A DNA stretch of 42,465 nt from the NCBI RefSeq assembly GCF_016841685.1, contig NZ_JAENYR010000026.1, forward strand, positions 1 through 42,465, read 5' to 3'. Of this stretch, positions 21,466-37,407 are shown in pieces (position 1 is the first letter of the stretch; each line of letters starts with the position of its first letter). The notes under the pieces were generated by a model. The model had not been told where the DNA came from and made no database searches. It was given only the letters and a program-made list of their open reading frames with translations. The stretch comes from Thiohalomonas denitrificans. GTDB taxonomy: Bacteria; Pseudomonadota; Gammaproteobacteria; Thiohalomonadales; Thiohalomonadaceae. A program made the translations under genes and the position numbers.

Positions 21466-22437
21466 TTACCCACCGGTTTGCGCCATATAGCGCACAACTC
21501 GCGTATCTCCACCAAAATCGTGGCGGGCCGGCTTGCGGGCCAATGCCCCCTGAATGGTTTCGATCAGCCCATCCCGCTCTCCCTCTTGAAGCCAGGGACG
21601 CAGTGCAACGGCGTGTTCACTACCGAGGCAGGTATAGAGCACCCCGTCGGACCCCACACGGACTCGATTGCAGGTATCACAGAAATGCTGGGACAAAGGG
21701 GTGATAAAGCCGATGCGTGTATCCGTCCCCGCTATTCGGACATAGCGTGCCGGCCCACCCCCGGGAAAGACATCGGGAATCAGATCGTACGTGGCCTCCA
21801 GCCGATCACGCACCTCACGCAGATCAATGAAGCGATCAGCGGCATCCCGTCCGGTCTGCCCCATCGGCATGGTTTCGATAAAGCGAAGCGTGATGCCGTG
21901 TGCATCGCAATAAGACACCATTGCCTCGACTTCGTCGTCATTGATGCCTTTCATCACCACCGCGTTGATCTTCATCGGTACCAGGCCGGCTTCAATGGCC
22001 GCTGATACGCCGTCAAGCACCGACTGCAGGTCACCGCCGCCGGTGATCTCGGCGAATCGTTCGGCACGCAACGAGTCGAGGCTGACATTGAGTCGATCGA
22101 CCCCGGCCGTCTTGAGCGCCCCTGCCAATTTCCCGAGTCGTACCCCGTTGGTGGAAAGCGACAGATCCTCAATACCGGAAATGCTGGCTACCGCCTCACA
22201 CACCTCCACGATATCGGTGCGCACCAGCGGTTCGCCGCCAGTCAGACGGACCCGGGAGACGCCCAGCTCGGCGAATGCCGCGACCAATCTCCCGATTTCT
22301 TCAGGTGAGAGTCGCTCTTCGTGTCCACAAAAACCTTTGAAGCCCTTGGGCAGACAATAGAAACAGCGCAAATCGCAGCGGTCAGTCACCGAAACCCGCA
22401 AATAATCCACCTGCCGCCCGTGCCCGTCTTTTAACAT
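21466..22437 (-). CDS. moaA: GTP 3',8-cyclase MoaA (molybdenum cofactor synthesis)
   Basis: A 323-residue radical SAM enzyme for the first step of molybdopterin synthesis, GTP to 3',8-cyclo-7,8-dihydro-GTP, with MoaC. The N-terminal 4Fe-4S/SAM site is C21-x3-C25-x2-C28 (DRCDLRCFYC), the GGEP motif is RLTGGEPLVR, the second cluster site is FCDTCNRVR plus a Cys 13 residues later (YTCLG), and the protein ends in the functional Gly-Gly tail (MAQTGG). The start at 22437 is preceded by GGGGAG at 6 bases; an in-frame ATG 14 codons upstream runs into a repeat and is less likely. NarG needs the molybdenum cofactor, which explains its place at the end of the nar region. Confidence 0.95.
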   Translation of the reverse strand: MLKDGHGRQVDYLRVSVTDRCDLRCFYCLPKGFKGFCGHEERLSPEEIGRLVAAFAELGVSRVRLTGGEPLVRTDIVEVCEAVASISGIEDLSLSTNGVRLGKLAGALKTAGVDRLNVSLDSLRAERFAEITGGGDLQSVLDGVSAAIEAGLVPMKINAVVMKGINDDEVEAMVSYCDAHGITLRFIETMPMGQTGRDAADRFIDLREVRDRLEATYDLIPDVFPGGGPARYVRIAGTDTRIGFITPLSQHFCDTCNRVRVGSDGVLYTCLGSEHAVALRPWLQEGERDGLIETIQGALARKPARHDFGGDTRVVRYMAQTGG

Positions 22438-22460
22438 TTTCTGCTCCCCTGGAAGGCAGT

Positions 22461-22565
22461 GCAGAGTTCGCCAGGGCACCGGGGTCGCGACGCTAAACGC
22501 CTCTCTCTCCGGAGTGCCATTAACACGAGACTTTGTGATCCCGGTGCCTTTGCGCTCTCTGCGCT
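22461..22565. repeat. Family C palindromic intergenic repeat, copy 1
   Basis: GGCACCGGGGTC (22475-22486) and GATCCCGGTGCC (22537-22548) are inverted with one mismatch; outside them GCAGAG and CTCTGCGC pair too. The reverse complement contains AGCGCAGAGAGCGCAAAGG, CACCGGGAT and GCGAACTCTGC, which recur in the same order at 32913-32977. It sits between the DsrC-like stop and moaA. A REP- or MITE-like sequence without coding content. Confidence 0.5.
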
Positions 22566-22576
22566 ATGCACTGCGC

Positions 22577-22942
22577 TCAGTGCTCGCCCTTGGTCTTGCG
22601 AATGCCCGCCAGTCGGTTGCCCTGCTTTTGCGGACCGCCCATCGGAAAGATATCGTGCAGGTAGCGGTTGTTGCCCTTTTCCGACCCCCACTTCGCCTTG
22701 AAGTGTTTAATCATGGTCCTTACCTGGGCCTGGACATTATGCTCGTCGTAGTAGTTGCGGATGTAGTAAATGACATCCCAGTGTTCATCGGTCAGTTCAA
22801 GCCCTTCATGCGCCGCGAGCGCCACGGCGAAGTCTTCCGACCAGTCGCCCATGTTCTGGATATAGCCTTCCGAATCGGTCATCACGGGTTGGCCATTGAC
22901 CATGATGGTATTCGTTTTGTGCGCCCACGGATTGGTATTCAT
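22577..22942 (-). CDS. DsrC/TusE-family protein lacking both redox cysteines
   Basis: A 121-residue DsrC-fold protein: VNGQPVMTDSEGYIQNMGDW, HEGLELTDEHWDVIYYIRNYY, FPMGGPQKQGNRLAG. DsrC and TusE carry sulfur on a C-terminal arm with a penultimate Cys (both) and a second Cys ten residues earlier (DsrC only). Here the arm reads QKQGNRLAGIRKTKGEH and the protein has no cysteine at all, so it cannot be a sulfur carrier. Cys-less members of this family have been described as a separate, possibly regulatory group. It lies in the nar region between moaA and a cytochrome gene, and a NarL-type 7-2-7 palindrome is found 83-98 bases upstream, pointing to a nitrate-linked role (inference). Confidence 0.9.
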   Translation of the reverse strand: MNTNPWAHKTNTIMVNGQPVMTDSEGYIQNMGDWSEDFAVALAAHEGLELTDEHWDVIYYIRNYYDEHNVQAQVRTMIKHFKAKWGSEKGNNRYLHDIFPMGGPQKQGNRLAGIRKTKGEH

Positions 22943-23024
22943 CCGTTCGCCTCCGTTATCGTCAGTCGATCTATTGCCGTCATCATTTCGCAGCCACCAA
23001 ATCGGGTAAATATAGAAGAGGCGC

Positions 23025-23040
23025 TACCCCTTTAGCGGTA
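23025..23040. promoter_or_regulatory. NarL-type 7-2-7 site upstream of the DsrC-like gene
   Basis: TACCCCT-TT-AGCGGTA: two NarL heptamers (consensus TACYYMT) as an inverted pair separated by 2 bases. The first is a perfect match, the second (TACCGCT when reversed) differs at one position. NarL and NarP of enterobacteria use this geometry. The rest of the 22943-23374 gap holds no gene or repeat that I can recognise. Confidence 0.6.
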
Positions 23041-23374: not shown

Positions 23375-23878
23375 TCAATTCAGTAATTCGATGTAAATAC
23401 CCAGATTCTGGACTTCTTCGTCGGACAGTTCTTTGGCCCACGGTGCCATCAGCTCTGTCATCGGACCGACCTTATGGCCGTCTCGATAAAGATTGAGCAT
23501 GGTTTCGACTCCGATGGCTGTTTTTCCGGCCAGGCTGGGAGTGAAACGGCCACCATGCCCGTCACGGTGATGGCAGAGCCGGCAGATTTCATCGTAGCGG
23601 TGCATCCCCGCTCTGGCCTTGCGCGCTCGTTCAGGATTGGTGGTCTCCAACTCAAGGATCTTGGGCACTGCCGGAGACTCCCCGGAATGTGCCGAATCAC
23701 CCTTGGTGATGAACTGGATCGTAAAGTGCACTCCCAGACCGACCGCTACTACGAGCAACAGCCAACTGAGTGCCTGGAGACGGCGTCGCATATTGCCAGG
23801 CGTCTTCATCTTTTCACAACCAGCGGTGCCGCTCATGTCCATGATCGTGGAGAGTTCTCGGAGAAAAGCAGGATGCAT
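23375..23878 (-). CDS. Membrane-anchored monohaem cytochrome c of the nar cluster
   Basis: A protein of about 167 residues with one N-terminal transmembrane helix (ALSWLLLVVAVGLGVHFTI) after a basic segment (MRRRLQ), an extracytoplasmic linker and a cytochrome c domain with a single haem site (CRLCHHRDGHGG) and a likely Met ligand in VGPMTELM; the end SDEEVQNLGIYIELL is the usual C-terminal helix. It follows narI by about 50 bases across a strong hairpin. A cytochrome c is not part of E. coli NarGHI, so it may exchange electrons between the nitrate reductase or quinol pool and periplasmic carriers (inference). The start is uncertain: 23878, 23842 and 23809 are all in frame, and 23809 would place the basic stretch right at the N-terminus. 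Confidence 0.82.
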   Translation of the reverse strand: MHPAFLRELSTIMDMSGTAGCEKMKTPGNMRRRLQALSWLLLVVAVGLGVHFTIQFITKGDSAHSGESPAVPKILELETTNPERARKARAGMHRYDEICRLCHHRDGHGGRFTPSLAGKTAIGVETMLNLYRDGHKVGPMTELMAPWAKELSDEEVQNLGIYIELLN

Positions 23879-23879
23879 C

Positions 23880-23907
23880 TGCCACCATCCCAAAAGGGAT
23901 GGTGGCA
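23880..23907. other. Perfect 12 bp stem-loop between narI and the cytochrome gene
   Basis: TGCCACCATCCC and GGGATGGTGGCA pair perfectly around AAAA, starting 23 bases after the narI stop. No T-run follows on the minus strand, and the first possible ATG of the cytochrome begins 2 bases after it. It is more likely an RNA processing or translation-control element than a terminator. Confidence 0.7.
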
Positions 23908-23930: not shown

Positions 23931-24629
23931 CTAATGGGCGGTGGCACGGTTGGTACGAACAATCTGATAGGCACGCCCCAAATAGCCGATAGGTGCGCTC
24001 CAGATGTGCACCAGACGGGTGAACGGAAAGAGCAGAAAAACCGTCATGCCAAAGATCAAGTGCAGGCGAAAGATCAACTCCGTTTCCGCAACCAACTCAG
24101 GCTTGGGACCGAACAATACGATACTCTTGGCCCACTGAGCCATGGCCATCATGGTATCGGCACTGCCATGCGCCGCGTGCTGTGCAGTCGCAAAAGTGGT
24201 ACCGAGTCCGAGCATCAACGTAATAAGGAGCCAGCTCAGGATAAACAAATCCGAGCCACGACCTGCTGCGCGAATACGTGGGTTGGTTACACGCCGCCAC
24301 CACAGCATACCGCCGCCGATCAGGCAAAGTATGCCAAGGAACCCGCCGCCATACATGGCGATATTCTGTTTGCCAAGACTGGACAGCGAGATGGTCTGCC
24401 AGAGGGCATACGGTGACAACAGGCCGAACAAGTGGCCGAAGAAAATACCGATAATGCCTATATGGAACAGATTGCTGGACAGGCGCAGACCCGACGAGGA
24501 GAGCAGCTGACTGGACGAACTGGTCCAGCCGTATTGCTCACGATCGAAGCGTATCCAACTGCCTATAAGAAACACCGACCCCGCCAGATAGGGATAGACG
24601 CCAAAAGCTAAGAAATTAAAGTAATCCAC
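23931..24629 (-). CDS. narI: Respiratory nitrate reductase, gamma subunit (cytochrome b)
   Basis: A 232-residue membrane protein with five predicted helices that oxidises quinol and passes electrons through two b haems to NarH. Typical segments are the start FNFLAFGVYPYLAGSVFLIGS, FDREQYGWTSSSSQLLSS, NLFHIGIIGIFFGHLFGL (haem His pair) and FRLHLIFGMTVFLLFPFTRLVHIWSAP (second His pair), with motifs split here for length: FRLHLIFGMT and FTRLVHIWSAP. Length fits the family (about 225). It lies 71 bases after narJ at the end of the narGHJI unit. Confidence 0.97.
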   Translation of the reverse strand: MDYFNFLAFGVYPYLAGSVFLIGSWIRFDREQYGWTSSSSQLLSSSGLRLSSNLFHIGIIGIFFGHLFGLLSPYALWQTISLSSLGKQNIAMYGGGFLGILCLIGGGMLWWRRVTNPRIRAAGRGSDLFILSWLLITLMLGLGTTFATAQHAAHGSADTMMAMAQWAKSIVLFGPKPELVAETELIFRLHLIFGMTVFLLFPFTRLVHIWSAPIGYLGRAYQIVRTNRATAH

Positions 24630-24700: not shown

Positions 24701-25225
24701 TTAAGCAGCCAAACGGGTCAGTGAAGCGCGGTTTTTGACGATAGAAAGCAGCGCTGCATAAGGGCTGTCGGCCTTGTTCAGATTATCGGTTAGCACTGCC
24801 AATACTTTGTGAGCATCAGACAGGAATGTCGTCGCCTCGCTGTCTTCCAGCATTGCGGCGAATTCCAGGATCACCGGCAAAAAGTCGGGTAACTCTTTAG
24901 CCGCCACCTTAATGCCGTAGTCCTTATACAGTTCGCCCAGATCGATCAATGCCGGACCACGAGCCCTGTCGTTATCATCACCGAACAGATGGTGGGTCAA
25001 ATGCAAACTGTGCTCTGGCGTCATATCGAAGGTTTTTACGTACTCTGTCTGTTGTTCAGTCAGCGGCGTACTGGTCAGGTGGTCAAGGAACTTCAATAAA
25101 GTTTCCTTTTCCTCCACGTCGATACGCTGACTCCCCTCGATTTCAGTGCGTATTTCCGGCAGATGGTCAAGCAACTCCTGATCCGGGTAATCCAGCAGCG
25201 CCGAAACTATCTTATAGATGGGCAT
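24701..25225 (-). CDS. narJ: Nitrate reductase molybdenum cofactor assembly chaperone
   Basis: A 174-residue all-helical cytosolic chaperone of the NarJ/TorD group that helps insert the molybdenum cofactor and a cluster into NarG before membrane docking. Family features are YKIVSALLDYPDQELLDHLP at the start, YVKTFDMTPEHSLHLTHHLF (the conserved D-x-x-PE-HSL-x-LTYHLFGD region) and FLPVILEFAAML. An ideal AGGAGG lies 8 bases before the ATG and overlaps the narH stop, so narH and narJ are tightly linked. Confidence 0.96.
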   Translation of the reverse strand: MPIYKIVSALLDYPDQELLDHLPEIRTEIEGSQRIDVEEKETLLKFLDHLTSTPLTEQQTEYVKTFDMTPEHSLHLTHHLFGDDNDRARGPALIDLGELYKDYGIKVAAKELPDFLPVILEFAAMLEDSEATTFLSDAHKVLAVLTDNLNKADSPYAALLSIVKNRASLTRLAA

Positions 25226-25236
25226 GGCATTTCCTC

Positions 25237-26787
25237 CTAGCTCTTCTTGTCTGCAGGCGGAGCCAGTTCAGCTGATTCTGGTGTTTCCTTACGCCGCCGC
25301 GGAAACAGGGAGACCTTGTTGATCCCTGACGAAGAATTATTACCAAAGGTAAACCCGTTTTGACCCTGGAACCCGTAGGCGTCGTCCATCCGCTCCTCTG
25401 CGTGACCGGTGGGAATAACGAAACGGTCCTCGTAATTGGCAATCGCCAGGTAACGGTACATCTCCTTGGCCTGCTCTTCCGTCATGCCCGCAGCTTCGAG
25501 AGGCCGTGTATCTGCAACACCCTCGACATGCACCGAGCGCTGATAGCTGCGCATGGCGATGAGGCGATTCATTGCGCTGAGAACGGGCTCTTCCTTACCT
25601 GCGGTGAACAGGTTGGCGAGATACTTCATCGGCGTACGCAGGGTTCCGGCCTCCGGAATCGCACCGTCAGGACCAACCGGCAGGTTACCCTGGTCGATCT
25701 GGGACTGAACAGGCGAAAGCGGTGGTACATACCAGACCATCGGCAGGGTGCGGAATTCAGGATGCAGCGGGAAGGCGATTTTCCAGTCGATCGCCATTTT
25801 GTAGATCGGCGATTTCTGCGCCGCCTGGATCCAGTCATCATTGATGCCTTCGGCCCTGGCTGCTGCAATCACTTCCGGATCATTGGGATCGAGGAAGATG
25901 TTGCACTGTGCTTCGTACAGATCCTCGTCGTTTTTCGTGCTGGCAAGTTCCTCGATGCGATCGGCGTCATAAAGCATGATGCCGTTGTAGCGAATGCGGC
26001 CGACGCAGGATTCCGAACATACCGTCGGCATGCCGGATTCGACACGCGGATAGCAGCCGATACACTTTTCGGCCTTGCCGGATTCCCAGTTGTAGAACAC
26101 CTTTTTGTAAGGGCATGCGCTCATGCAGAAGCGCCAGCCACGGCACTTGTCCTGATCGGCCAGCACGATGCCATCCTCTTCGCGCTTGTAGAGCGAGCCG
26201 GACGGACAGGCCGCCACACAGGCCGGGTTCAGGCAGTGATTGCAGATACGCGGCAAATAGAGGTTAAAGGTATTTTCGAACTGGCCATACATCTCCTTCT
26301 GGATGTTGTCCATGTTCTTGTCCTGGCCACGCTTGGAATATTCACCCGCCAGATCATCTTCCCAGTTCGGACCCCAGGTGATCTTCTCCATGGGATCGCC
26401 CGAAATCATCGAAAGCGGACGTGCAGTCGGAGCTGCCTCGGACAAGGGGGCGTTCTGCAAATGCGCGTAGTTATAGGTGAACGGCTCGTAGTAATCATCA
26501 ATCTCCGGCATATCCGGGTTAGCGAAGATATTCAACATCTTCGATATGCGCCCACCGGATTTCAGCTCCAGCTTGCCGTTGGTCAGTGTCCAGCCGCCTT
26601 TCCATTTCTCCTGGTTTTCCCACTGTTTCGGATAGCCGATGCCGGGCTTGGACTCAACATTATTGAACCATACGTATTCCACACCCTTACGGTTGGTCCA
26701 GGTGTTCTTGCATGTAACCGAGCAGGTATGGCAGCCGATGCATTTGTCGAGGTTAAAGACAAATGCGAATTGTGCACGTACTTTCAT
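25237..26787 (-). CDS. narH: Respiratory nitrate reductase, beta subunit (Fe-S)
   Basis: A 516-residue cytosolic electron-transfer subunit with four clusters. Cysteine motifs are CIGCHTCSVTCKNTW, CNHCLNPACVAACPSG, CRGWRFCMSACPYKK (Trp in place of one Cys, giving the 3Fe-4S centre as in E. coli) and CIGCYPRVESGMPTVC with CVGR. It carries electrons from NarI haems to the FS0 cluster of NarG. The length is normal; the C-terminal tail (RRRKETPESAELAPPADKKS) is variable in the family. Spacing to narG is 50 bases. Confidence 0.98.
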   Translation of the reverse strand: MKVRAQFAFVFNLDKCIGCHTCSVTCKNTWTNRKGVEYVWFNNVESKPGIGYPKQWENQEKWKGGWTLTNGKLELKSGGRISKMLNIFANPDMPEIDDYYEPFTYNYAHLQNAPLSEAAPTARPLSMISGDPMEKITWGPNWEDDLAGEYSKRGQDKNMDNIQKEMYGQFENTFNLYLPRICNHCLNPACVAACPSGSLYKREEDGIVLADQDKCRGWRFCMSACPYKKVFYNWESGKAEKCIGCYPRVESGMPTVCSESCVGRIRYNGIMLYDADRIEELASTKNDEDLYEAQCNIFLDPNDPEVIAAARAEGINDDWIQAAQKSPIYKMAIDWKIAFPLHPEFRTLPMVWYVPPLSPVQSQIDQGNLPVGPDGAIPEAGTLRTPMKYLANLFTAGKEEPVLSAMNRLIAMRSYQRSVHVEGVADTRPLEAAGMTEEQAKEMYRYLAIANYEDRFVIPTGHAEERMDDAYGFQGQNGFTFGNNSSSGINKVSLFPRRRKETPESAELAPPADKKS

Positions 26788-26837: not shown

Positions 26838-29800
26838 TCAACGACTGCCGATTCCGGGCGGGTTGAGTTGGGCTTCCCGTTCTGGAGTTAGTGAACCTTC
26901 CAGCCAATCGATATCCTTGTCGGCAACTTTTCGCATAATCACCTCGGTATCGCGGTTGCAACCCACCGTGCCGTAATAGTTGAAGCTGTAGGCCAGCTGC
27001 ACGTAGCCACCAATCATGTTGGTTGGCTTGATTACGACTCGTGTTACGGAATTGAGAATGCCGCCACGTTTGCCCGTAGTATTGGAGCCCGGCACGTTTA
27101 CAATCTTCTCCTGGGCGTGATACATCATCGCCACGCCGCGCGATACGCGTTGCGAAACTACCGCGCGAGCAACCGTTGAACCGTTAGCGTTAACCGCTTC
27201 AACCCAATCGTTGTCTTCGATACCGGCTGCCTTGGCATCAACTTCGGAAATCCATACATAGGGACCGCCACGGAACAGCGTCAACATGCGATGGTTATCC
27301 TGATAGGTTGAATGGATGCCCCACTTCGAGTGCGGTGTGATCCATTTCAGTTTGATGTCCTTGTCTTGCGCGATGTCGGCCGAAAGATTGCCAAACGATT
27401 TCATGTCCTGTGGTGGCTTATGCACACAGAAACCTTCACCAAAATCGAGCATCCACTCGTGGTCCTGATAGAAGTGTGCACGACCCGTCAGGGTGCGGAA
27501 CGGGATATGTTCATGGATATTGGTGTAACCCGAAGTGTAAGAGACGGTTTCGGACTCGATTCCCGACCAGGTTGGCGCGGTGATGATCTTGCGCGGCTGT
27601 ACCTGGATATCATGGAAGGTGATCTTGTCCTCCTGCCGTGCAGCATACAGATGGTGATGGTCGATACCGGTCTTCTTGGACAGCGCGGACCAGGACTTGT
27701 GAGCGACCTCACCGCAGGTTTCCGGCGCCATGCGCATTACCGAATCACAGACGAAGATGTCTTCTTCGAGTGAGGGCATGCCAAAGGAAACGCCCGGCTC
27801 TTTGACTCCGCCGTTCATCACCTTGAGCTGTTCGTACTCTTCTTCGGTATTCCAGTCGAGGCCTTTGACGCCGTTGCCCAGCTTGACCATCAGGGGGCCG
27901 ATGGCGATGTACTTCTTATAGGTGTCGGCAAAATTGCGCTCGACCACCTTGAGCAGCGGCATGGTCTTGCCGGGAACCGGGTCACATTCGCCCTTACTCC
28001 AGTCCTTGACTTCACCGAATGGTTGAGCCATCTCGAAGGCCGAGTCATGCTGCATCGGCAGGGCAACCAGATCCTTGCGTGTACCGAGGTGCTTTTCCGC
28101 CAGCTCCGAGAAGGTCTTGGCGATATTCTTGAAGATCTGCCAATCGGACTTGGACTCCCAGGCCGGGGATACGGCTTCCGACAGCGGATGCATGAAGGGA
28201 TGCATGTCGGTGGTGTTGAGGTCGTTCTTCTCATACCAGGTGGCAGTCGGCAGAACGATATCCGAGTAGGCGCCAGTGGAGTTCAGGCGGAAATTGATAT
28301 CCACCATCAGGTCCAGTTTTCCGATTGGCGCTTCTTCGTGCCATTTGACCAGCTTGTTTTCACGCCCATCGCCGGATTCCTGCAGCACGCCATTCTGTGC
28401 ACCGAGCAAGTGCTTGAGGAAATACTCGTGCCCCTTGGCGGATGTGCCGATCAGATTGGCGCGCCAGACGAAAAGGTTGCGCGGCCAGTTGACCGGGTTG
28501 TCCGGGTCGGCAAACGCAACGTCCAGCGATCCATCCTTGAGCTTACCGACCACATGCTTGGCAATTCCCGCCTCGTCGGTAGCACCGGCCTTTTCGGCCT
28601 CCGCAACCAGGTCAAGCGGGTTGGTGTTCCAGTGAGGCGCGGACGGCAGCCAGCCCATGCGAACGGCAGCAACATTGTAATCGGCCAGTGAGTAACCCTT
28701 GTTCTTGCCTTTACCGGCAGGCGAGGTGAGATCGTCGGGACGAAGGGTCTCGTAGCGCCACTGATCGGTGTGGAAATACCAGTAGGAGGTGGAGTTCATG
28801 TGGCGTGGAGGACGCTGCCAGTCGAGTGCGAAGGCAATCGGTGCCCAGCCTGCCTGTGGCCGCAGCTTCTCCTGCCCCACGTAGTGTGCCCAACCACCGC
28901 CTGATTGACCCACACAGCCGCAGATGTGCAGCAGGTTCATCACACCACGGTACATCATATCGTTGTGATACCAGTGGTTGATCGCCGCACCCATGATGAC
29001 CATGGATTTGCCATGGGTCTTGGAGGCGTTGTAGGCAAACTCACGCCCCGTGCGCTCGATGTCGGCAGCCTTGACTCCGGTGACCTTTTCCGCCCAGGCA
29101 GGGGTATAGGCCACACTGGCGTCGCTGTAGTCATTGGTTACGTTTTCACCGCCCAGACCACGGTCGATACCATATTGCGAAATTTGCATATCGAAAACAG
29201 AAGCAACCAGGGCTTCTTCGCCGCTGGCCAGCTTTACCTTGCGTACAGGTACATTGCGGTACAGCAAATCACCTTCACCTGGCTCGAAGTGCGGGAAGCC
29301 GACGGACACCACATCATCCCTGTTATCGATACAGGAGAGTTCAGCTACGATTTCCTCTTGAGTGGCGGAGTTCTTGGGCAGCAGATTCCACTTACCCTCT
29401 TCACCCCAACGGAAGCCGATTGAGCCGTTTGGCGCCACAAAAGTTTTGGATTTCTCATCATAAACGATGGTTTTCCACTCTGGATTGTTGGTCTCACCCA
29501 GAGCGCCATCCAGATCGGAAGCGCGCAGGCAGCGGTCGGACACGTAACCTTCGCCCTGTTTGCGCAGCATCACCTGAATGGGCAGATCGGTGTACTTACG
29601 TGCATACTCCGAAAAATAGGGATCCTGCTTGTCGATATAGAACTCTTTCAGCGCTACATGGCCCATCGCCTGGAAGGCCGCCGTATCGGTACCCGGATTG
29701 ACCGGCATCCACAGGTCGGACGCCTTACAGTACTCAGCGTAATCGGGTGCCATGGAGATGACCTTCGCACCCTTGTAACGCACTTCGGAAACAAAATGTG

Positions 29801-30593
29801 CATCCGGCGTACGTGTGGTTGGCAGGCTCGATCCACACACGATAAGGTAAGTAGAGTTGAACCAGTCAGCCGATTCCGGCACGTCGGTTTGCTCGCCCCA
29901 TGTTTGCGGGGATGCTGCAGGCAGATCGCAATACCAGTCATAAAATGAACCGCAGGCGCCACCGATCAGCGACAGATAGCGTGCGCCGGAAGCGTAGGAG
30001 ATCTGCGACATTGCCGGAATGGGCGAAAAACCGAAAATACGGTCAGGGCCATATTTCTTGGTGGTATAGACGTTGGCTGCAGCAACGATTTCTTTCACTT
30101 CTTCCCAGTCGGCGCGCACGAAGCCACCCAGGCCACGCACAGCGGTGTATTTCCTGCGCTTGTTTTCGTCAGCCTGAATCGTGGACCATGCCTCCACAGG
30201 GTCCTTTCCTGATTTGCGTTCAGTGCGGTACAGATCCAGCAAGCGGCCGCGAATCAGCGGGTACTTGATGCGTTGCGGGCTATACAGATACCAGGAATAA
30301 GAAGCACCACGCTGACAGCCTCGCGGCTCATGGTCCGGCAAGTCTCCGCGAGTACGTGGATAGTCGGTCTGTTGCATTTCGTATGCCACCAGACCGTTTT
30401 TGACAAAGATCTTCCAGGAACAACCACCGGTACAGTTCACGCCATGGGTGGAGCGTACCATTTTGTCATGTGCCCAGCGGCCGCGGTAGGCATCTTCCCA
30501 TTGCCGATCTTCATTGGTTAGAATCCCGTGGTCGCCGGAAAAGGTATCTTTTATTTTTTCAAAGAATTTCAGTCTGTCGAGGAAATGGCTCAT
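26838..30593 (-). CDS. narG: Respiratory nitrate reductase, alpha subunit (Mo-bisMGD)
   Basis: The 1251-residue catalytic subunit reducing nitrate to nitrite on the cytoplasmic face. FS0 is held by His and three Cys in HGVNCTGGCSW (about residues 50-60) with a later Cys. The region YDWYCDLPAASPQTWGEQTD with VPESADWFNSTY contains the Asp that ligates molybdenum in NarG. No Tat or Sec signal is present; the N-terminus (MSHFLDRLKFF) is the NarG type retained in the cytoplasm. Length matches E. coli NarG (1247). Upstream are several NarL-like heptamers and a long hairpin that separates it from narK2. Confidence 0.98.
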   Translation of the reverse strand: MSHFLDRLKFFEKIKDTFSGDHGILTNEDRQWEDAYRGRWAHDKMVRSTHGVNCTGGCSWKIFVKNGLVAYEMQQTDYPRTRGDLPDHEPRGCQRGASYSWYLYSPQRIKYPLIRGRLLDLYRTERKSGKDPVEAWSTIQADENKRRKYTAVRGLGGFVRADWEEVKEIVAAANVYTTKKYGPDRIFGFSPIPAMSQISYASGARYLSLIGGACGSFYDWYCDLPAASPQTWGEQTDVPESADWFNSTYLIVCGSSLPTTRTPDAHFVSEVRYKGAKVISMAPDYAEYCKASDLWMPVNPGTDTAAFQAMGHVALKEFYIDKQDPYFSEYARKYTDLPIQVMLRKQGEGYVSDRCLRASDLDGALGETNNPEWKTIVYDEKSKTFVAPNGSIGFRWGEEGKWNLLPKNSATQEEIVAELSCIDNRDDVVSVGFPHFEPGEGDLLYRNVPVRKVKLASGEEALVASVFDMQISQYGIDRGLGGENVTNDYSDASVAYTPAWAEKVTGVKAADIERTGREFAYNASKTHGKSMVIMGAAINHWYHNDMMYRGVMNLLHICGCVGQSGGGWAHYVGQEKLRPQAGWAPIAFALDWQRPPRHMNSTSYWYFHTDQWRYETLRPDDLTSPAGKGKNKGYSLADYNVAAVRMGWLPSAPHWNTNPLDLVAEAEKAGATDEAGIAKHVVGKLKDGSLDVAFADPDNPVNWPRNLFVWRANLIGTSAKGHEYFLKHLLGAQNGVLQESGDGRENKLVKWHEEAPIGKLDLMVDINFRLNSTGAYSDIVLPTATWYEKNDLNTTDMHPFMHPLSEAVSPAWESKSDWQIFKNIAKTFSELAEKHLGTRKDLVALPMQHDSAFEMAQPFGEVKDWSKGECDPVPGKTMPLLKVVERNFADTYKKYIAIGPLMVKLGNGVKGLDWNTEEEYEQLKVMNGGVKEPGVSFGMPSLEEDIFVCDSVMRMAPETCGEVAHKSWSALSKKTGIDHHHLYAARQEDKITFHDIQVQPRKIITAPTWSGIESETVSYTSGYTNIHEHIPFRTLTGRAHFYQDHEWMLDFGEGFCVHKPPQDMKSFGNLSADIAQDKDIKLKWITPHSKWGIHSTYQDNHRMLTLFRGGPYVWISEVDAKAAGIEDNDWVEAVNANGSTVARAVVSQRVSRGVAMMYHAQEKIVNVPGSNTTGKRGGILNSVTRVVIKPTNMIGGYVQLAYSFNYYGTVGCNRDTEVIMRKVADKDIDWLEGSLTPEREAQLNPPGIGSR

Positions 30594-30865: not shown

Positions 30866-32479
30866 TTAAGGATTCTTTATCTCGGCTTTCGGACCGAGGT
30901 AGAACCACCAGTTCAGAAGCAGACAAATCAAGTAGAAGACAGCGAACCCGTAGAGGGCATTTTCCGGGGTCGTTGCCTTGATCTGCTCGCCAAACACCTG
31001 AGGAATGATGAAGGCGCCGTAAGCCGCAACAGCCGAGGTCCATCCCAGGGCCGGACCGGCCTGCTCTTTCGGGAATACCATGGCAATGGTGCGGAAGGTC
31101 GAGCCGTTGCCGATGCCTGTAGCCCCGAACAGCACCAGGAAGAGGATAAAGAAGGGTATGAAGTGCTCTTCCGGAGTAGCCGACGCGTAGGCCGCCTGCA
31201 TATAGTAGGCAACACCCAGGGCCGCAGCGATCATGATGATGGCGACGATCTGGGTCACCTTGGCACCACCGACCTTGTCGGCGATCCAGCCGCCCACCGG
31301 GCGAATCAACGCGCCGATGAAGGGGCCCATCCAGGCGTACATCAGGGCAGAGGGGCCGTTCGGGTTCGCGATGTCGTGGGTCATCACGCCGTCTACCTCG
31401 ACATGCTGGAACCCGAACACCACCTTGATGGCCAGGGCGAAGCCGGCGGAGTAGCCGATGAAGCTACCGAAGGTCATGGTGTAGATGACGCTCATGATCC
31501 ACGTATGCTTATTGCCGAAGATTTTGAACTGACGCTGCAGGTTCGGCTTGATGTCGCCCGGGATCATCTTCATCAGCATGACGGTGGCGAACAGGATACC
31601 CACGATGACCGGCCACTTGGCCCAACCCGGGGCACCAAGACCCACGGGTTCCGGGAGTATGATGTAGAGACCCAAGGCCGCCGTGATGAAGCCGATGATC
31701 AGCAGGCCCATGATCTTACCGAAGGCACTGAATGGAGAGCCGATGTGCGGCGAGACCTCTTCGGTGCGGATGTTGTTCATACCGAACCAACCCGCGAAGG
31801 CCAGCGGGACCAGGAAAAGCAGCCAGACGAAGCCGGCGTTCTGGATATAGGTCGTGGTACCCGCCGGGATCTTGCCGATCAGTGTTCCGGAAGTGCTCTG
31901 CAGTTCCATGCCTGCACCGCCAAAGGCACCGAACAGCGGAACGGTCATCACCAGCGGCACCAGGATCTGCATGGTGGTCACGCCCGCATTGCCCAAACCT
32001 GCATTGAGGCCCAGCGCCAGCCCCTGTGACCGTTTCGGGAAAAAGAAGCTGATGTTGGACATCGACGAGGCAAAGTTGCCGCCACCGAAACCGGACAGGA
32101 ACGCCAGCATCTGGAATACCCACAGCGGTGTGTCTTTATCCTGCAGCGCCAGCCCAGTTCCCAGGGCCGGAATCATCAATAGCGCGGTCGTGAAGAAAAT
32201 GGTATTGCGACCGCCGGCGATGCGAACAAAGAAACTGCTGGGAATGCGCAGTGTTGCGCCGGTAAGGCCGGCAATCGCCGACAGCGTGAATAGCTCGGCC
32301 GCCTCGAACGGATAACCGAGATTAAGCATCTGTACAGTAATGATGCCCCAGTAGAGCCATACCGCAAACCCGCAAAGAAGACTGGGAATCGATATCCACA
32401 GGTTCCGATTCGCGATTCGTTTCCCGGTCTTCTCCCAGAACGTTGGATCTTCAACGTTCCACTCTTTTAGATCAGCCAT
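30866..32479 (-). CDS. narK: Nitrate/nitrite antiporter, NarK2 type (MFS)
   Basis: A 537-residue MFS transporter with about 12 helices. It shows the nitrate signature motifs GFGGGNFASSMSNISFFFPK and FKADQ-like later helices: GMELQSTSG (between), TFGSFIGYSAGFAL and GNGSTFRTIAMVFP (second nitrate signature). The long N-terminal lead (EWNVEDPTFWEKTGKRIA) is typical of NarK2/E. coli NarK, which exchange nitrate for nitrite. It is upstream of narG in the same direction, and a NarL-type palindrome lies about 160 bases before its ATG. The second transporter gene downstream on the map is of the other type (NarK1). Confidence 0.93.
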   Translation of the reverse strand: MADLKEWNVEDPTFWEKTGKRIANRNLWISIPSLLCGFAVWLYWGIITVQMLNLGYPFEAAELFTLSAIAGLTGATLRIPSSFFVRIAGGRNTIFFTTALLMIPALGTGLALQDKDTPLWVFQMLAFLSGFGGGNFASSMSNISFFFPKRSQGLALGLNAGLGNAGVTTMQILVPLVMTVPLFGAFGGAGMELQSTSGTLIGKIPAGTTTYIQNAGFVWLLFLVPLAFAGWFGMNNIRTEEVSPHIGSPFSAFGKIMGLLIIGFITAALGLYIILPEPVGLGAPGWAKWPVIVGILFATVMLMKMIPGDIKPNLQRQFKIFGNKHTWIMSVIYTMTFGSFIGYSAGFALAIKVVFGFQHVEVDGVMTHDIANPNGPSALMYAWMGPFIGALIRPVGGWIADKVGGAKVTQIVAIIMIAAALGVAYYMQAAYASATPEEHFIPFFILFLVLFGATGIGNGSTFRTIAMVFPKEQAGPALGWTSAVAAYGAFIIPQVFGEQIKATTPENALYGFAVFYLICLLLNWWFYLGPKAEIKNP

Positions 32480-32635: not shown

Positions 32636-32651
32636 TACCACCTGAGTGGTA
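32636..32651. promoter_or_regulatory. NarL-type 7-2-7 palindrome upstream of narK2
   Basis: TACCACC-TG-AGTGGTA has the NarL/NarP inverted 7-2-7 geometry, centred about 165 bases before the ATG. One half-site fits TACYNMT, the other has a final C. A half FNR site (TTGAT on the minus strand, 32535-32545) lies closer to the gene, with a poor second half. The gap 32480-33019 contains no convincing gene. Confidence 0.5.
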
Positions 32652-33019: not shown

Positions 33020-34282
33020 TTACCGTATCCCTTCTGCTTCTGCCTCGGCCCTGAGCCGTCGATCCGTCGCCCGTTCGTCTGTGTAATGCATCCACATCAG
33101 CGACACCAGGGTGATGCCGAACAGCAGCCACCAGACGACTGTGTTGAACTGGAACACATCGACCAGTATGCCGAACAGAATGGGCAGCAGGAATCCGCCG
33201 AGTCCGCCGACCAGCCCGACAATGCCGGAGATAACACCGATGTTATCCGGGTATTCGTCGGAGATGTACTTGAAGACCGAGGCCTTGCCCAATCCCCAGG
33301 CGATGCCGACGACAAACAGCAGCGCGGTGAATACCCACATGTTGACGCCCAGATTCATCACGATCGGGTCACCGGACAGGGTAGTGATAGTGACCGTAGT
33401 ATCCGGGAAGGCGATGACAAAGAGACAGGCGAGGCTCGTCCACATCACCCACCAGGTGACCGTATGGGCGCCGAACCGATCGGACAACCAGCCTCCGGCG
33501 GCCCGAATCACGCCGGAAGGCAGAACAAAGATGGCGGCCATCAACGCGGCCACCTGAATACCGAGCCCGTACTCGCTCACATAGTATTTGGTCATCCACA
33601 GAGTTACACCGACAAACCCCCCGAAGACCAGCGAATAGTACTGGCAGTATTTCCACACCGTCGGATCCTTGAGTGCGGCCAACTGTTCCTTGATGGTGAT
33701 GCTTTTGCCCGCGGTGTGGTGCGCCGGTTCCTTATAGGTGAGGAACCAGTAGGAAATGGCCATGATGGTCATGGCAGCAGCATAGACCTGCGGCACGGAG
33801 GTCCAGCCGTAGACCACCACCAGGGTGGGCGCCACGAACTTGGTCACCGCGGCTCCGGCATTGCCCGCCCCGAAGATACCCATGGCAAAGCCCTGATTCT
33901 CCTTGTCGAACCAGCGCGCCGTGGCGGCAATACCCACCGAAAAGGAGCCGCCGGTGAGCCCCACGAACAGACCACATAACAGTAGCGCCCAATAGCTGGT
34001 CAATACCGAAATCAGCCAGATGGGAAAGATGGTAAAAACCATCAGCAAAAAGTACACGATACGCCCGCCGAATTTGTCGGTAAGCATGCCAAGTGGAAGC
34101 CGCACCAGAGAGCCGGTAAGGATGGGCGTGGCGACGAGGATACCGAACTCGGTATCACTCAGCCCCAGGTTTTCCTTGATGGGAATGCCTATGACGGAAA
34201 ACATCGTCCACACCGCGAAACATACGGTGAACGCCGTCGTATTCATGGTGACCGTCATTATCTGTTCACGTGATAATGCCAT
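33020..34282 (-). CDS. narK: Nitrate transporter, NarK1 type (MFS)
   Basis: A 420-residue MFS protein with about 12 helices. It has the NNP-family signatures GLTGGSFSVGIAATARWF (first) and FGAGNAGAAVTKFVAP (second region), the sugar-phosphate-like loop LGMLTDKFGGR and an N-terminus starting directly at helix 1. The short N-terminus and length match NarK1, thought to be a nitrate/proton symporter that starts nitrate uptake, while NarK2 exchanges nitrate for nitrite. The upstream region holds an inserted 158 bp element and, beyond it, a perfect FNR box. Confidence 0.92.
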   Translation of the reverse strand: MALSREQIMTVTMNTTAFTVCFAVWTMFSVIGIPIKENLGLSDTEFGILVATPILTGSLVRLPLGMLTDKFGGRIVYFLLMVFTIFPIWLISVLTSYWALLLCGLFVGLTGGSFSVGIAATARWFDKENQGFAMGIFGAGNAGAAVTKFVAPTLVVVYGWTSVPQVYAAAMTIMAISYWFLTYKEPAHHTAGKSITIKEQLAALKDPTVWKYCQYYSLVFGGFVGVTLWMTKYYVSEYGLGIQVAALMAAIFVLPSGVIRAAGGWLSDRFGAHTVTWWVMWTSLACLFVIAFPDTTVTITTLSGDPIVMNLGVNMWVFTALLFVVGIAWGLGKASVFKYISDEYPDNIGVISGIVGLVGGLGGFLLPILFGILVDVFQFNTVVWWLLFGITLVSLMWMHYTDERATDRRLRAEAEAEGIR

Positions 34283-34481: not shown

Positions 34482-34597
34482 AAGGCACTTCCGAGCGACA
34501 CTACAATGGTAGGCGAACGGATCGCAAGGTGGACAAAGTGGGCGCTAGACACCCTGCAATACCCACAAAGAAGTAAGGGGTTACACGAGCTGCACCA

Positions 34598-34611
34598 TTG
34601 ATGCATATCAA
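34598..34611. promoter_or_regulatory. Perfect FNR/Anr box between narK1 and narX
   Basis: TTGATGCATATCAA matches the FNR consensus TTGAT-N4-ATCAA exactly. It lies 316 bases before narK1 (158 without the inserted element) and 212 before narX. It suggests oxygen-responsive activation of one or both divergent units. No clear -10 box at the usual class II distance is seen on either side, so the start sites remain open. Confidence 0.75.
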
Positions 34612-34822: not shown

Positions 34823-36748
34823 ATGAGCCATTTCCTGAAGCGCTCACTGCTTCTGCGCCTGGGCCTGGCGCTGTCGACGATCACCACCCTTGCCTTTCTG
34901 GGTATGCTAAGTTCAGTCTTCATCGCAGAGACCGGCAAAGGGGACGCCAGTGCCATCAACCAGGCCGGTTCGCTACGTATGCAGTCCTACCGGGTGGCCA
35001 CCGCCGTCCTTTATTATCAAAACGGTGCCTATGGGACCTACCCTCAGGTCCAGTCCGCCACTGACGAATTCGTCAGCCGCCTGAAAGACAACCGGCTGGT
35101 CCGTGCCCTCCCCAAGTCCAGTGACGATCCGTTACGTGCTACATATGATTCCGTCGAGTCCAAGTGGCACAGCCGCATAGAACCATTTGTTTCAGAGGCG
35201 AAACAGCTGGTTGATCGGTATCGGCTCGGCGAAATTGGAGAGGAACGCATCGCCACCTTCCAAGCGTTTTACCTGGCAAACCTGGCGGATTTTTTCAACG
35301 AGGTCGATTATCTGGTCAAATTGATCGAAAACGCTGCGGAAGCCAAGATTGAGCGACTGCGTATTATCCAGGTAGTGACTCTGTTTCTAACGCTTGCGGT
35401 TGTCTTTATCACCATGCACCTCATGCACACGGATGTTCTTATTCCGCTCAGGGACTTGCTGGCGGCAGCGGAAAAAGCGCGCCATGGAGATTTTTCGGGA
35501 CGCGTTTCCCACACCAGTAATGATGAGCTGGGCCGCCTTGGCAATGCCTTTAACGTCATGTCCGCGGACCTCTCCCGCAAATACGCGGATCTGGAAGCCC
35601 GCGTACGGGAGAAGACGATCGACCTGGAGCAGAGCAATCGATCCCTGGAGCTGCTTTATAACACCTCGGTGCTCCTCAATGCCGGTCCGTTGACAGAGTC
35701 AACCTACCGTCTGCTCCTGGAAGATATCCGCAAGTTGGTCGGCACCGGCCCGGGTACCATCTGTTTGACCAAGCACAACGATATACGAGCACTCAAGCTG
35801 GCCTCGACCCGAACCCCGGAACAGGGCCGACGCGATCTCTGCAACCCGCCTGAATGCATCAATTGCTTTGGAGCCGGAACAACACACCTGATCGATGTCC
35901 CTCGAGGCCGTAACAATCTCAGGGTGATATCCATCCCCATACGCGACCAGAATCATTACCATGGCGTGCTGCTCATCGAAATCCCCCCGGGGAAGCGACT
36001 TGCCGACTGGCAAACCCGACTCATCGAAACCGTGGCCCAGAATATCGCCAACGCGATCACCATTGCCGAACGCGATACGGAGTCACGACGCCTGGCTCTA
36101 CTGGAGGAGCGAAGCGTCATCGCCCGTGAGCTTCACGATTCGCTGGCTCAGTCCCTCTCCTACCTGAAGATCCAGGTGAGCCGTATCCATGCCGCCCTCA
36201 AAAAACCGGACGGCAAGGAGTCGGCACAGGCCGTAGTGGAAGAATTGCGCGAAGGACTTAACAGTGCCTACCGGCAACTGCGGGAACTACTGACCACGTT
36301 CCGGCTCAAAATGGACGGTCATGGTCTTTCCAAGGCACTGGAGGAGACGGTCCGTGAGTTCGCCATTCGCAGTAACGTCACCGTCGAACTGCATGACCGA
36401 CTCTACAGTGCACAACTCACCGCCAACGAAGAGATCCACACCTTGCAACTGGTGCGGGAGGCCATCGGGAACGTGATCAAGCACGCCGAGGCCACGCACG
36501 CTGCCATTACGCTCGACTCGAATGACGAAGGCTACGTCACTGTAGTCGTTGAGGATGACGGTCAGGGTATCCCTCCCTCCCCTCAGCGTCGCCAGCACTA
36601 CGGGCTCGCGATCATGGAAGAACGGGCTCAGATCCTCGGGGGTAATGTTACGATCAGTACCAAATCCGAGGGCGGCACCCGAGTCGAGCTGAATTTCCTG
36701 CCATCGACCCGAAGGCCTGTTACCAAAACCGAAACCGAGACTGGATAA
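34823..36748 (+). CDS. narX: Nitrate/nitrite sensor histidine kinase NarX
   Basis: A 641-residue sensor. Helix 1 (LLRLGLALSTITTLAFLGML) leads to a periplasmic domain with the P-box that senses nitrate (AINQAGSLRMQSYR). Helix 2 (VVTLFLTLAVVFITMHLM) is followed by HAMP, a central signalling domain with a Cys cluster (CNPPECINCFG), a HisKA_3 dimerisation domain with phospho-acceptor His near 437 (ARELHDSLAQSLSYLK) and a HATPase domain (VREAIGNVIKHAEA, VEDDGQGIP). All features match NarX/NarQ-type kinases. The start has GAAGGA 5 bases upstream, just after a stem-loop (34784-34810). narL follows 2 bases later. Confidence 0.96.
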   Translation: MSHFLKRSLLLRLGLALSTITTLAFLGMLSSVFIAETGKGDASAINQAGSLRMQSYRVATAVLYYQNGAYGTYPQVQSATDEFVSRLKDNRLVRALPKSSDDPLRATYDSVESKWHSRIEPFVSEAKQLVDRYRLGEIGEERIATFQAFYLANLADFFNEVDYLVKLIENAAEAKIERLRIIQVVTLFLTLAVVFITMHLMHTDVLIPLRDLLAAAEKARHGDFSGRVSHTSNDELGRLGNAFNVMSADLSRKYADLEARVREKTIDLEQSNRSLELLYNTSVLLNAGPLTESTYRLLLEDIRKLVGTGPGTICLTKHNDIRALKLASTRTPEQGRRDLCNPPECINCFGAGTTHLIDVPRGRNNLRVISIPIRDQNHYHGVLLIEIPPGKRLADWQTRLIETVAQNIANAITIAERDTESRRLALLEERSVIARELHDSLAQSLSYLKIQVSRIHAALKKPDGKESAQAVVEELREGLNSAYRQLRELLTTFRLKMDGHGLSKALEETVREFAIRSNVTVELHDRLYSAQLTANEEIHTLQLVREAIGNVIKHAEATHAAITLDSNDEGYVTVVVEDDGQGIPPSPQRRQHYGLAIMEERAQILGGNVTISTKSEGGTRVELNFLPSTRRPVTKTETETG

Positions 36749-36750
36749 CA

Positions 36751-37407
36751 ATGCGTGACAAGACCGAGAATACGATTCTGGTCATTGATGATCATCCCCT
36801 GTTCCGCAAAGGGGTAGAAGACCTGATTGCGATGGATGAGAACCTGGAGTGTATCGGCCAGGCCTCGTCCGGTGAAGAGGGCATCCGAAAGGCGAAGGAA
36901 CTCGGACCGGACATCATCCTTCTAGACCTGAACATGAAAGGCATGGACGGCATTGAAACCCTCAAGGCATTGAAAGCCGAGGAATCCGTGGATGGAAGGG
37001 TGATCATGCTTACTGTCTCCGATCACGAGGAAGATGTCATCACTGCCCTGCGCTCCGGTGCCGACGGCTACCTTCTCAAGGACATGGACCCGGAGCATAT
37101 CCTGGAAAACATCCAGACTGCCGCACAGGGACGGCTCGTCATCAGTGACCGGCTCACGGAACTTCTTGCCAAGGCATTGCGTGAAGACAACCGGCCGCGC
37201 AATCCATCCGAAGCCGGACTGACTGATCGGGAAAGGGAAATTCTCGGTCTGATCGCCCGGGGAATGAGCAATAAACTCATCGCCCGTGAACTCGACATTA
37301 CCGTGGGTACGGTCAAGGTGCACATCAAGCACCTACTGAAAAAACTCAACCTCCGCTCCCGTGTCGAAGCGGCCGTACTGGCGGTCAGCAAGGGCGTACC
37401 GCACTAA
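36751..37407 (+). CDS. narL: Response regulator NarL
   Basis: A 218-residue two-component regulator. The receiver has the acidic pair in VIDDHPLFRKGVED, the phospho-acceptor Asp59 (ILLDLNMKGMDG), conserved Thr/Ser in MLTVSD and Lys in YLLKDMDPE. The LuxR-type DNA-binding domain (about 150-210) reads LTDREREILGLIARGMSNK, then TVGTVKVHIKHLLKKL. It binds TACYYMT heptamers in the NarL family; candidate sites occur before narK2, narG and the DsrC-like gene in this window. It is coupled to narX and ends at a strong terminator. Confidence 0.96.
   Translation: MRDKTENTILVIDDHPLFRKGVEDLIAMDENLECIGQASSGEEGIRKAKELGPDIILLDLNMKGMDGIETLKALKAEESVDGRVIMLTVSDHEEDVITALRSGADGYLLKDMDPEHILENIQTAAQGRLVISDRLTELLAKALREDNRPRNPSEAGLTDREREILGLIARGMSNKLIARELDITVGTVKVHIKHLLKKLNLRSRVEAAVLAVSKGVPH

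Follow-up and report, generated by a model that had tools for sequence, protein, structure and literature searches.

DsrC acts through its C-terminal cysteines, by which it binds and transfers sulfur, and TusE needs its single C-terminal Cys. What, then, is the role of a member of this family that has no cysteine at all and is encoded among genes of nitrate respiration? The question was raised by a contig of Thiohalomonas denitrificans (NZ_JAENYR010000026.1) of 42,465 nucleotides, which was analysed at its full length and is called the window below. A first-pass annotation had described a Cys-free protein of the DsrC/TusE fold between moaA and a nar-linked cytochrome gene, preceded by a NarL-type palindrome, and had suggested that it could connect nitrate respiration with sulfur metabolism.

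The protein and its place in the window

It was found that the translated open reading frame held no Cys in its 121 residues. The protein matched the Pfam DsrC family (PF04358) with 119.8 bits (cut-off 24.9) and NCBIfam TIGR03342 with 110 bits (cut-off 53.5); the TusE equivalog cut-off of 191 was not reached (103.7 bits). The AlphaFold2 model had a pLDDT of 92.1, and its best solved match by Foldseek was DsrC of A. vinosum (1yx3; TM 0.79/0.85, 44% identity, E of 4e-10). All 7 structures at E ≤ 0.001 belonged to the DsrC family, and among the matches listed the helix-turn-helix protein LexA first appeared at E of 5. By profile and predicted fold, the protein is a clear member of the DsrC/TusE/DsvC superfamily, which confirmed the annotated Cys-free protein of this fold. 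The gene and its surroundings were as follows.

22577..22942, minus strand: Cys-free DsrC-like protein (GEH type), 121 aa (open reading frame, profiles, AlphaFold2 model)
22580..22648, minus strand: C-terminal arm, residues 99-121, FPMGGPQKQGNRLAGIRKTKGEH (alignment)
22616-22618, minus strand: N109 at the CysA column (alignment)
22583-22585, minus strand: E120 at the CysB column, followed by H121, the chain end (alignment)
21466..22479, minus strand: moaA, molybdenum cofactor synthesis, downstream of the DsrC-like gene (TIGR02666, 366 bits)
23375..23893, minus strand: cytochrome c, upstream, with a hydrophobic N-terminal stretch by eye (PF13442)
23931..24629, minus strand: narI (TIGR00351, 256 bits)
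24701..25225, minus strand: narJ-like gene (by its position, conserved between narH and narI in nar loci)
25237..26787, minus strand: narH (TIGR01660, 858 bits)
26838..30593, minus strand: narG (TIGR01580, 1894 bits)
30866..32479, minus strand: narK-type nitrate/nitrite transporter 2 (TIGR00886, 282 bits, cut-off of 311.7 not reached)
33020..34282, minus strand: narK-type nitrate/nitrite transporter 1 (TIGR00886, 203 bits, cut-off of 311.7 not reached)
34823..36748, plus strand: narX/narQ-type sensor kinase (NarQ 425 and NarX 395 bits, both below cut-off)
36751..37407, plus strand: narL response regulator (NF007935 NarL, 315 bits against a cut-off of 250)

The genes were thus ordered narK1, narK2, narG, narH, narJ, narI, cytochrome c, DsrC-like gene and moaA, with narX and narL nearby, and the family matches of the neighbours bore out the annotated location. 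The narJ-like gene had no NCBIfam match at the 1e-40 limit. A similar cytochrome gene was observed in 6 of the 10 other relatives' loci. A second narG of the same genome (G000:C54:50355-54086, 2226 bits) was located on a contig without a DsrC-family match, and two dsrA genes were detected (G000:C108:4960-6174 and G000:C160:45572-46774, with 553 and 549 bits).

The window genome encoded six members of PF04358. A canonical DsrC with the arm KQACKIAGLPKPTGCI was found on contig C108, 2.4 kb from dsrA, and a Cys-less paralogue ending RRKGGY lay 2.6 kb from dsrA on its other side; further paralogues had CysA only (two, on C109 and C45) or CysB only (one, on C100). The separate canonical dsrC that the first-pass annotation had wished to see checked is therefore present in the same genome, and a two-Cys DsrC was found in all 11 carriers of the GEH protein in the 56-genome set described below.

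A separate clade with a conserved arm

The GEH protein shares with A. vinosum DsrC (1yx3) the fold and the arm scaffold FP..GP.KQ....AG, but it lacks CysA and CysB, at which N109 and E120 were found, has a one-residue insertion (GGP for GP), and ends in GEH where DsrC ends in GC[IV]. With TusE it shares family and fold but not the C-terminal Cys, the position of CysB being taken by E120; the CysB-only class here reads KSANKIAGLPRPKGCS. Reportedly, RspA is the name given by Venceslau and co-workers in 2014 to Cys-less relatives of DsrC. The lack of a conserved Cys that characterises RspA was observed in the window protein as well.

In 56 genomes (that of the window and those of relatives), orthologues were found in 10 other genomes at 66–94% identity, and beyond them the identity of homologues dropped to 49% or less. 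The set yielded 133 homologue matches. Of these, 96 were classified (11 GEH proteins, 80 others and 5 own paralogues), and the 37 unclassified ones were G028:C75 and G030:C178, both with internal stops, G019:C30, and 34 weaker or partial matches. In a tree made without the arm, the GEH rows (46) lay on one side of a branch with an SH-aLRT support of 99, and the Cys-less KGGY class lay on one side of another branch with a support of 94.

The wider distribution was obtained by a pattern scan of 84,980 species' genomes, which returned 384 stretches (360 relatives) in named genomes; the best 80 were read. These came from Gamma- and Betaproteobacteria, among them Sedimenticola, Candidatus Thiodiazotropha, Thiobacillus, Gallionellaceae and Hydrogenophaga, with one MAG labelled Rhodospirillales. 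All of these 80 loci encoded a C-terminal GEH, a count biased by the arm pattern GGPQKQGN, which was one of the two scan patterns. Because the scan included the arm, the members from whole-protein searches are a better check of the ending, and it was found there in the 11 members of the relatives' set and in 2 further members of a phylum sample.

The arm of the clade was almost invariant (GGPQKQGNRxAGxxxTxGEH), with Asn for CysA, Glu for CysB and His as the last residue. Its mean column entropy was 0.29 bits, compared with 0.96 bits in residues 20–98 (91 rows). Five genes were double in these 91 rows, and such doubles are also among the 90 upstream regions used below, loci L057, L064, L071, L084 and L087 being the genes of G012, G018, G017, G008 and G014, respectively. 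Canonical DsrC exhibited the same contrast, with 0.15 bits in the arm and 0.61 bits in the body (26 rows), which is expected if the GEH arm is used as that of DsrC is. The dN/dS value of the window gene against that of the congener was 0.065, and narI and narJ both gave 0.12. The conserved arm and the low dN/dS imply that the protein has been maintained and that it uses its arm. The missing catalytic residues of the parent family might have suggested a decaying dsrC duplicate carried along with the nar operon; but selection on the gene was stronger than on narI and narJ, the arm is nearly invariant and the clade is spread over Gamma- and Betaproteobacteria, so that this reading is already contradicted by the selection data and is extremely improbable. 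Strong constraint acts on the GEH gene, which belongs to a DsrC-family clade of its own and is no degenerate copy.

It was also considered that sulfur might be carried by a Cys outside the arm or by another residue. Among the best 80 of the 360 relatives, a single Cys was present in 17 (at position 10 in 12 cases), which would suit such a carrier; but the other 63 were Cys-free, as were 10 of the 11 GEH proteins from the relatives' set, and the Cys of the 17 was never in the arm. We regard this possibility as highly improbable.

The main rival to the role proposed below is a regulator, in which a DNA-binding, Cys-less relative of DsrC, similar to RspA, would adjust dsr or nar transcription during nitrate respiration. 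The Cys-less state and the linkage to the pathway fit this reading, and a study of the Riftia symbiont, with a citation of Venceslau et al. 2014, mentions regulation of transcription as a putative function of DsrC. Against it, the most constrained part of the protein was the C-terminal arm, and the Foldseek matches up to E of 0.001 were DsrC proteins throughout, with LexA far behind among the matches listed; DNA binding would still be compatible with both observations. A regulator is rather unlikely on this evidence.

As for phages, PMC8190135 describes dsrC/tusE-like genes on phages, some of them without one or both of the arm cysteines (without either in 5). They share the loss of arm Cys with the GEH protein. 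No GEH relative was encoded by the 36 stretches of a viral contig collection that matched the patterns, and a phage-borne origin of the GEH gene was rejected on this ground. Plasmid records gave 15 matches, all below 60% identity and labelled tusE where annotated.

Gene neighbourhoods and genome profile

Across the 96 classified matches, arm type and gene neighbourhood went together. Nine of the 11 GEH genes were located within 5 kb of narG and none within 10 kb of dsrA/B; the gene of G012 abuts narHJI on a 4 kb contig, and the 20 kb surrounding that of G033 showed no similarity to the nar genes of the window. In contrast, 25 of the 27 two-Cys DsrC genes were within 10 kb of dsrA/B and none within 5 kb of narG. 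The KGGY class, also Cys-less, was within 10 kb of dsrA/B in 16 of 24 cases and near narG in 0 of 24. Neither narG nor dsrA/B was found near CysB-only genes (0/15), CysA-only genes (0/16 at the same 5 and 10 kb distances) or other Cys-less arms (0/3). Thus, none of the 85 non-GEH family members, 27 of them with a Cys-less arm, lay within 5 kb of narG, and by position neither did any of the 37 unclassified matches. Since the 27 other Cys-less arms had no nar proximity, nar linkage is a property of the GEH clade and not of Cys-less members generally. The enrichment of Cys-less homologues near nar genes that had been anticipated held for the GEH clade but failed for the others, above all the KGGY class, and a general rule that Cys-less DsrC proteins lie near nar was rejected as true, in this set, of the GEH clade only.

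The KGGY class, for example G000:C108:2070-2384 (L004) with relatives among L176–L224, made up 24 of the 96 classified matches. It may be an RspA-type protein, and its position beside dsrA makes it another candidate for the RspA description besides the GEH clade. In the CysA-only class (G000:C109:4285-4590, which is L003, and L198, L203, L217, L220, L225 and others), 12 of 16 members end in WSTG.

Among the best 80 of the 360 relatives, at least one of narG, narH, narJ and narI was present on the same locus in 52, a count from which 6 loci with only distant molybdoenzyme matches were excluded. In 51 of the 80 loci, narI or a cytochrome gene lay upstream on the same strand, with gaps of 2–726 bp (49 within 336 bp), and in L125 the GEH gene was situated just before narG. 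Stem-loops were predicted in the gaps between narI or cytochrome and GEH gene, with z < -2 against single-base shuffles in 25 of 47 regions; strong examples were L106, L108, L114 and L099, and they might perhaps serve differential expression of the last gene.

The 28 non-nar loci were labelled from ORF calling, clustering and family searches of chosen neighbours, and include short contigs such as L076, L098, L127 and L130. In four betaproteobacterial loci, L090 (one MAG), L118 (Curvibacter), L128 and L131 (both Hydrogenophaga), the GEH gene followed genes read as dsrL, dsrP and dsrN and was followed by an SoeA-like molybdoenzyme gene, the names being taken from clustering at L090, L118 and L128 and from family matches at L131; narG was found elsewhere in these genomes. 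A tetrapyrrole methylase gene and a NarXL-like two-component pair were also seen near these four GEH genes (by family matches on L131). Three loci were beside NasA/formate-dehydrogenase-like genes, two of them also with DMSO-reductase-like genes, the NasA-like proteins staying below curated cut-offs. Two others had narK and a phosphatase/kinase protein. An HPP membrane protein was encoded at seven loci, identified by Pfam at L072 and L105 and at the other five by clustering with that of L105. Two more adjoined U32-peptidase genes, assigned by Pfam at L094, where DUF2249 was also seen, and by clustering at L111. No clear partner gene was recognized in 10 of the 28. In the tree of the GEH clade, nar-linked rows were scattered throughout, and the four dsr-linked rows formed one branch (97).

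These data bear on the possibility that the GEH protein is a NarJ-like maturation or structural factor of nitrate reductase itself. The gene follows narI in most loci, moaA was located 3' of it in the window, in the congener and in G010, and genes of other molybdenum enzymes adjoin some loci. A Nar assembly factor would be expected with Nar irrespective of Dsr, but the GEH gene was not found in any nar+ dsr- genome (63 in the phylum sample, 3 in the set of relatives), and in L090, L118, L128 and L131 it stood behind dsr genes with narG elsewhere. A Nar factor is therefore very unlikely.

The 56 genomes were scored for narG, dsrA and napA, with G012 and G016 counted on a dsrB-type match only. 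The GEH gene was found in 11 of the 15 genomes with nar and dsr, in 0 of 12 with dsr only, in 0 of 3 with nar only and in 0 of 26 with neither. Within the dsr+ genomes the association with Nar gave a Fisher P of 1.8e-4, with kinship ignored; in all these profile counts the genomes are not phylogenetically independent. The dsr+ nar+ genomes lacking the gene (G003, G013, G020 and G052) were 72–91% complete. None of the 6 dsr+ nar- nap+ genomes carried it, and a general role in nitrate respiration is disfavoured by its absence from Nap-only and nar-only genomes.

In a phylum sample of 398 genomes, clear GEH members (each at least 181 bits) were observed in 3 genomes. Two of these, that of the window and G322, were nar+ dsr+; the third, G298, was dsr+ nar- and had the gene at a distance of 10.6 kb from dsrA, with both on one strand. 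Of 17 weaker matches (≤121 bits), 16 were readable and none of these ended in GEH; L139 had internal stops. The gene was absent from 47 of the 48 dsr-only genomes, and also from 3 of the 5 nar+ dsr+ genomes (G243, G271 and G284), which indicates that it is not obligatory.

By record title, 66 genomes were further carriers, and 50 of these were scored for dsrA and narG. All 50 had dsrA, 49 over the cut-off and one with a match cut near a contig end; narG was found in 43. Of the 7 without a narG match, L052 and L103 have nar genes adjoining the GEH gene on short contigs, and in the other five its neighbours are NasA/formate-dehydrogenase-like genes or narK, or include no nitrate gene. In these data, Dsr is the stricter requirement of the GEH protein, and Nar the looser one. 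The suggested link between nitrate reduction and sulfur metabolism is supported by the nar neighbourhood together with the finding that the carriers scored here were all dsr-bearing.

The NarG proteins linked to GEH genes fell in a narrow band of ∼1885–1940 bits to TIGR01580, and most others were above 2050. They are possibly one NarG lineage typical of sulfur oxidisers, and shared operon transfer among sulfur oxidisers could then inflate the nar linkage. G271 and G033 had a NarG of this type without a linked GEH gene, and in six carriers with NarG of 2130–2255 bits the GEH gene was not located near nar (L086, L090, L118, L128, L130 and L131).

The palindrome TACCCCT-TT-AGCGGTA that had been annotated upstream of the gene was present, and further sites were found by scanning.

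23025..23040: NarL-type 7-2-7 palindrome, 83–98 bp upstream of the ATG
34560..34575: second NarL-type 7-2-7 site, narK1-narX gap (pattern scan)
32636..32651: third NarL-type 7-2-7 site, narK1-narK2 gap (pattern scan), its sequence also upstream of the congener's narK2 (L041 19855)
34598..34611: perfect FNR-type box TTGATGCATATCAA, narK1-narX gap, near the second NarL-type site

With the NarL heptamer consensus, which we take to be TACYYMTNNAKRRGTA, 2 sites with at most one mismatch were found in the window against 0.10 expected from shuffles, the palindrome at 23025–23040 being one mismatch from this strict form; with at most two mismatches there were 3 sites for 1.32 expected, an unremarkable number that 13 of 100 shuffles reached. 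For the relaxed form TACYNMTNNAKNRGTA, no site of the 3.79 Mb genome other than the palindrome matched with 0 mismatches. At most one mismatch gave 38 sites in the genome and 3 in the window against 0.43 expected (Poisson P of 0.009, for a window chosen after the fact), all 3 in intergenic gaps of the nar cluster. Genome-wide the motif was not enriched, the backwards pattern giving 114 sites against 38. The FNR-type box follows what is presumably the consensus, and ∼1 such site with at most one mismatch is expected per window by chance.

The two further sites between nar genes fit a NarL-controlled cluster beside narX and narL. Among 90 upstream regions, the palindrome was seen in 2, those of the window species and the congener, the latter with one mismatch and one half degraded; the backwards pattern was also found in 2 of 90, and shuffles gave a mean of 0.4. 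The palindrome itself thus stood, but as both sites belong to one genus and the control was equal, the proposed control by NarL is graded weak. In this genus the palindrome may supply an additional promoter within the 432 bp gap that precedes the gene. The 51 of 80 relatives' loci with narI or the cytochrome gene upstream on the same strand would owe nitrate control to the operon itself. The palindrome is not part of what defines the GEH protein.

Proposed role

The genome profile argues for the GEH protein being an accessory of Dsr sulfur oxidation that is deployed with cytoplasm-facing nitrate reduction. As the arm scaffold is kept without a thiol, the protein cannot be a persulfide carrier of the DsrC kind. 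The conserved arm implies a binding partner, the close company with dsrAB suggests that this is a partner of DsrC, and the linkage to cytoplasm-facing nitrate reduction suggests when the protein is made. We propose, with the balance about even, a non-catalytic mimic of DsrC that docks on a DsrC partner, with a tuning or protective effect on the Dsr pathway under nitrate. It would be made together with the cytoplasm-facing nitrate reductase; its arm would dock, without carrying sulfur, most likely on DsrAB and possibly on DsrEFH or DsrK; and the docked protein might act on the Dsr pathway during cytoplasmic nitrate reduction by inhibition, protection or the matching of electron flow.

A more specific possibility is a guard against nitrite or NO. 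When nitrate is reduced cytoplasmically, the thiol-free arm would enter the DsrAB channel where the arm of DsrC normally goes, and with Glu120-His121 near the sirohaem it would block poisoning or draining of the enzyme. Sulfite reductase is sensitive to nitrite, and HPP is linked to nitrite transport. Such a guard would explain why the GEH gene occurs with DsrAB and why it accompanies Nar but is missing where Nap stands alone, and it would also account for the copies beside NasA/formate-dehydrogenase-like, NarK or HPP genes. We consider it quite unlikely.

Cys-less relatives of DsrC are known as a kind, and the GEH clade with its nar linkage appears to be new as far as the open literature shows: no account was found there of a nar-linked Cys-less DsrC, of the GEH clade or of the combined Nar and Dsr profile, and an earlier mention may exist elsewhere. 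A transcriptome study of T. denitrificans by Beller in 2006 may be relevant. The clade provides a handle on Cys-less DsrC proteins by its arm signature, its operon and its genome profile, and the profile predicts that the GEH protein is needed when Dsr sulfur oxidation meets cytoplasm-facing nitrate reduction. Should DsrAB, DsrEFH or DsrMK prove to be its docking partner, the GEH protein would be, to our knowledge, the first dedicated protein coupling nitrate respiration with the Dsr pathway. Such coupling is important where sulfide drives denitrification, as in sediments, in aquifers and in animal symbioses.
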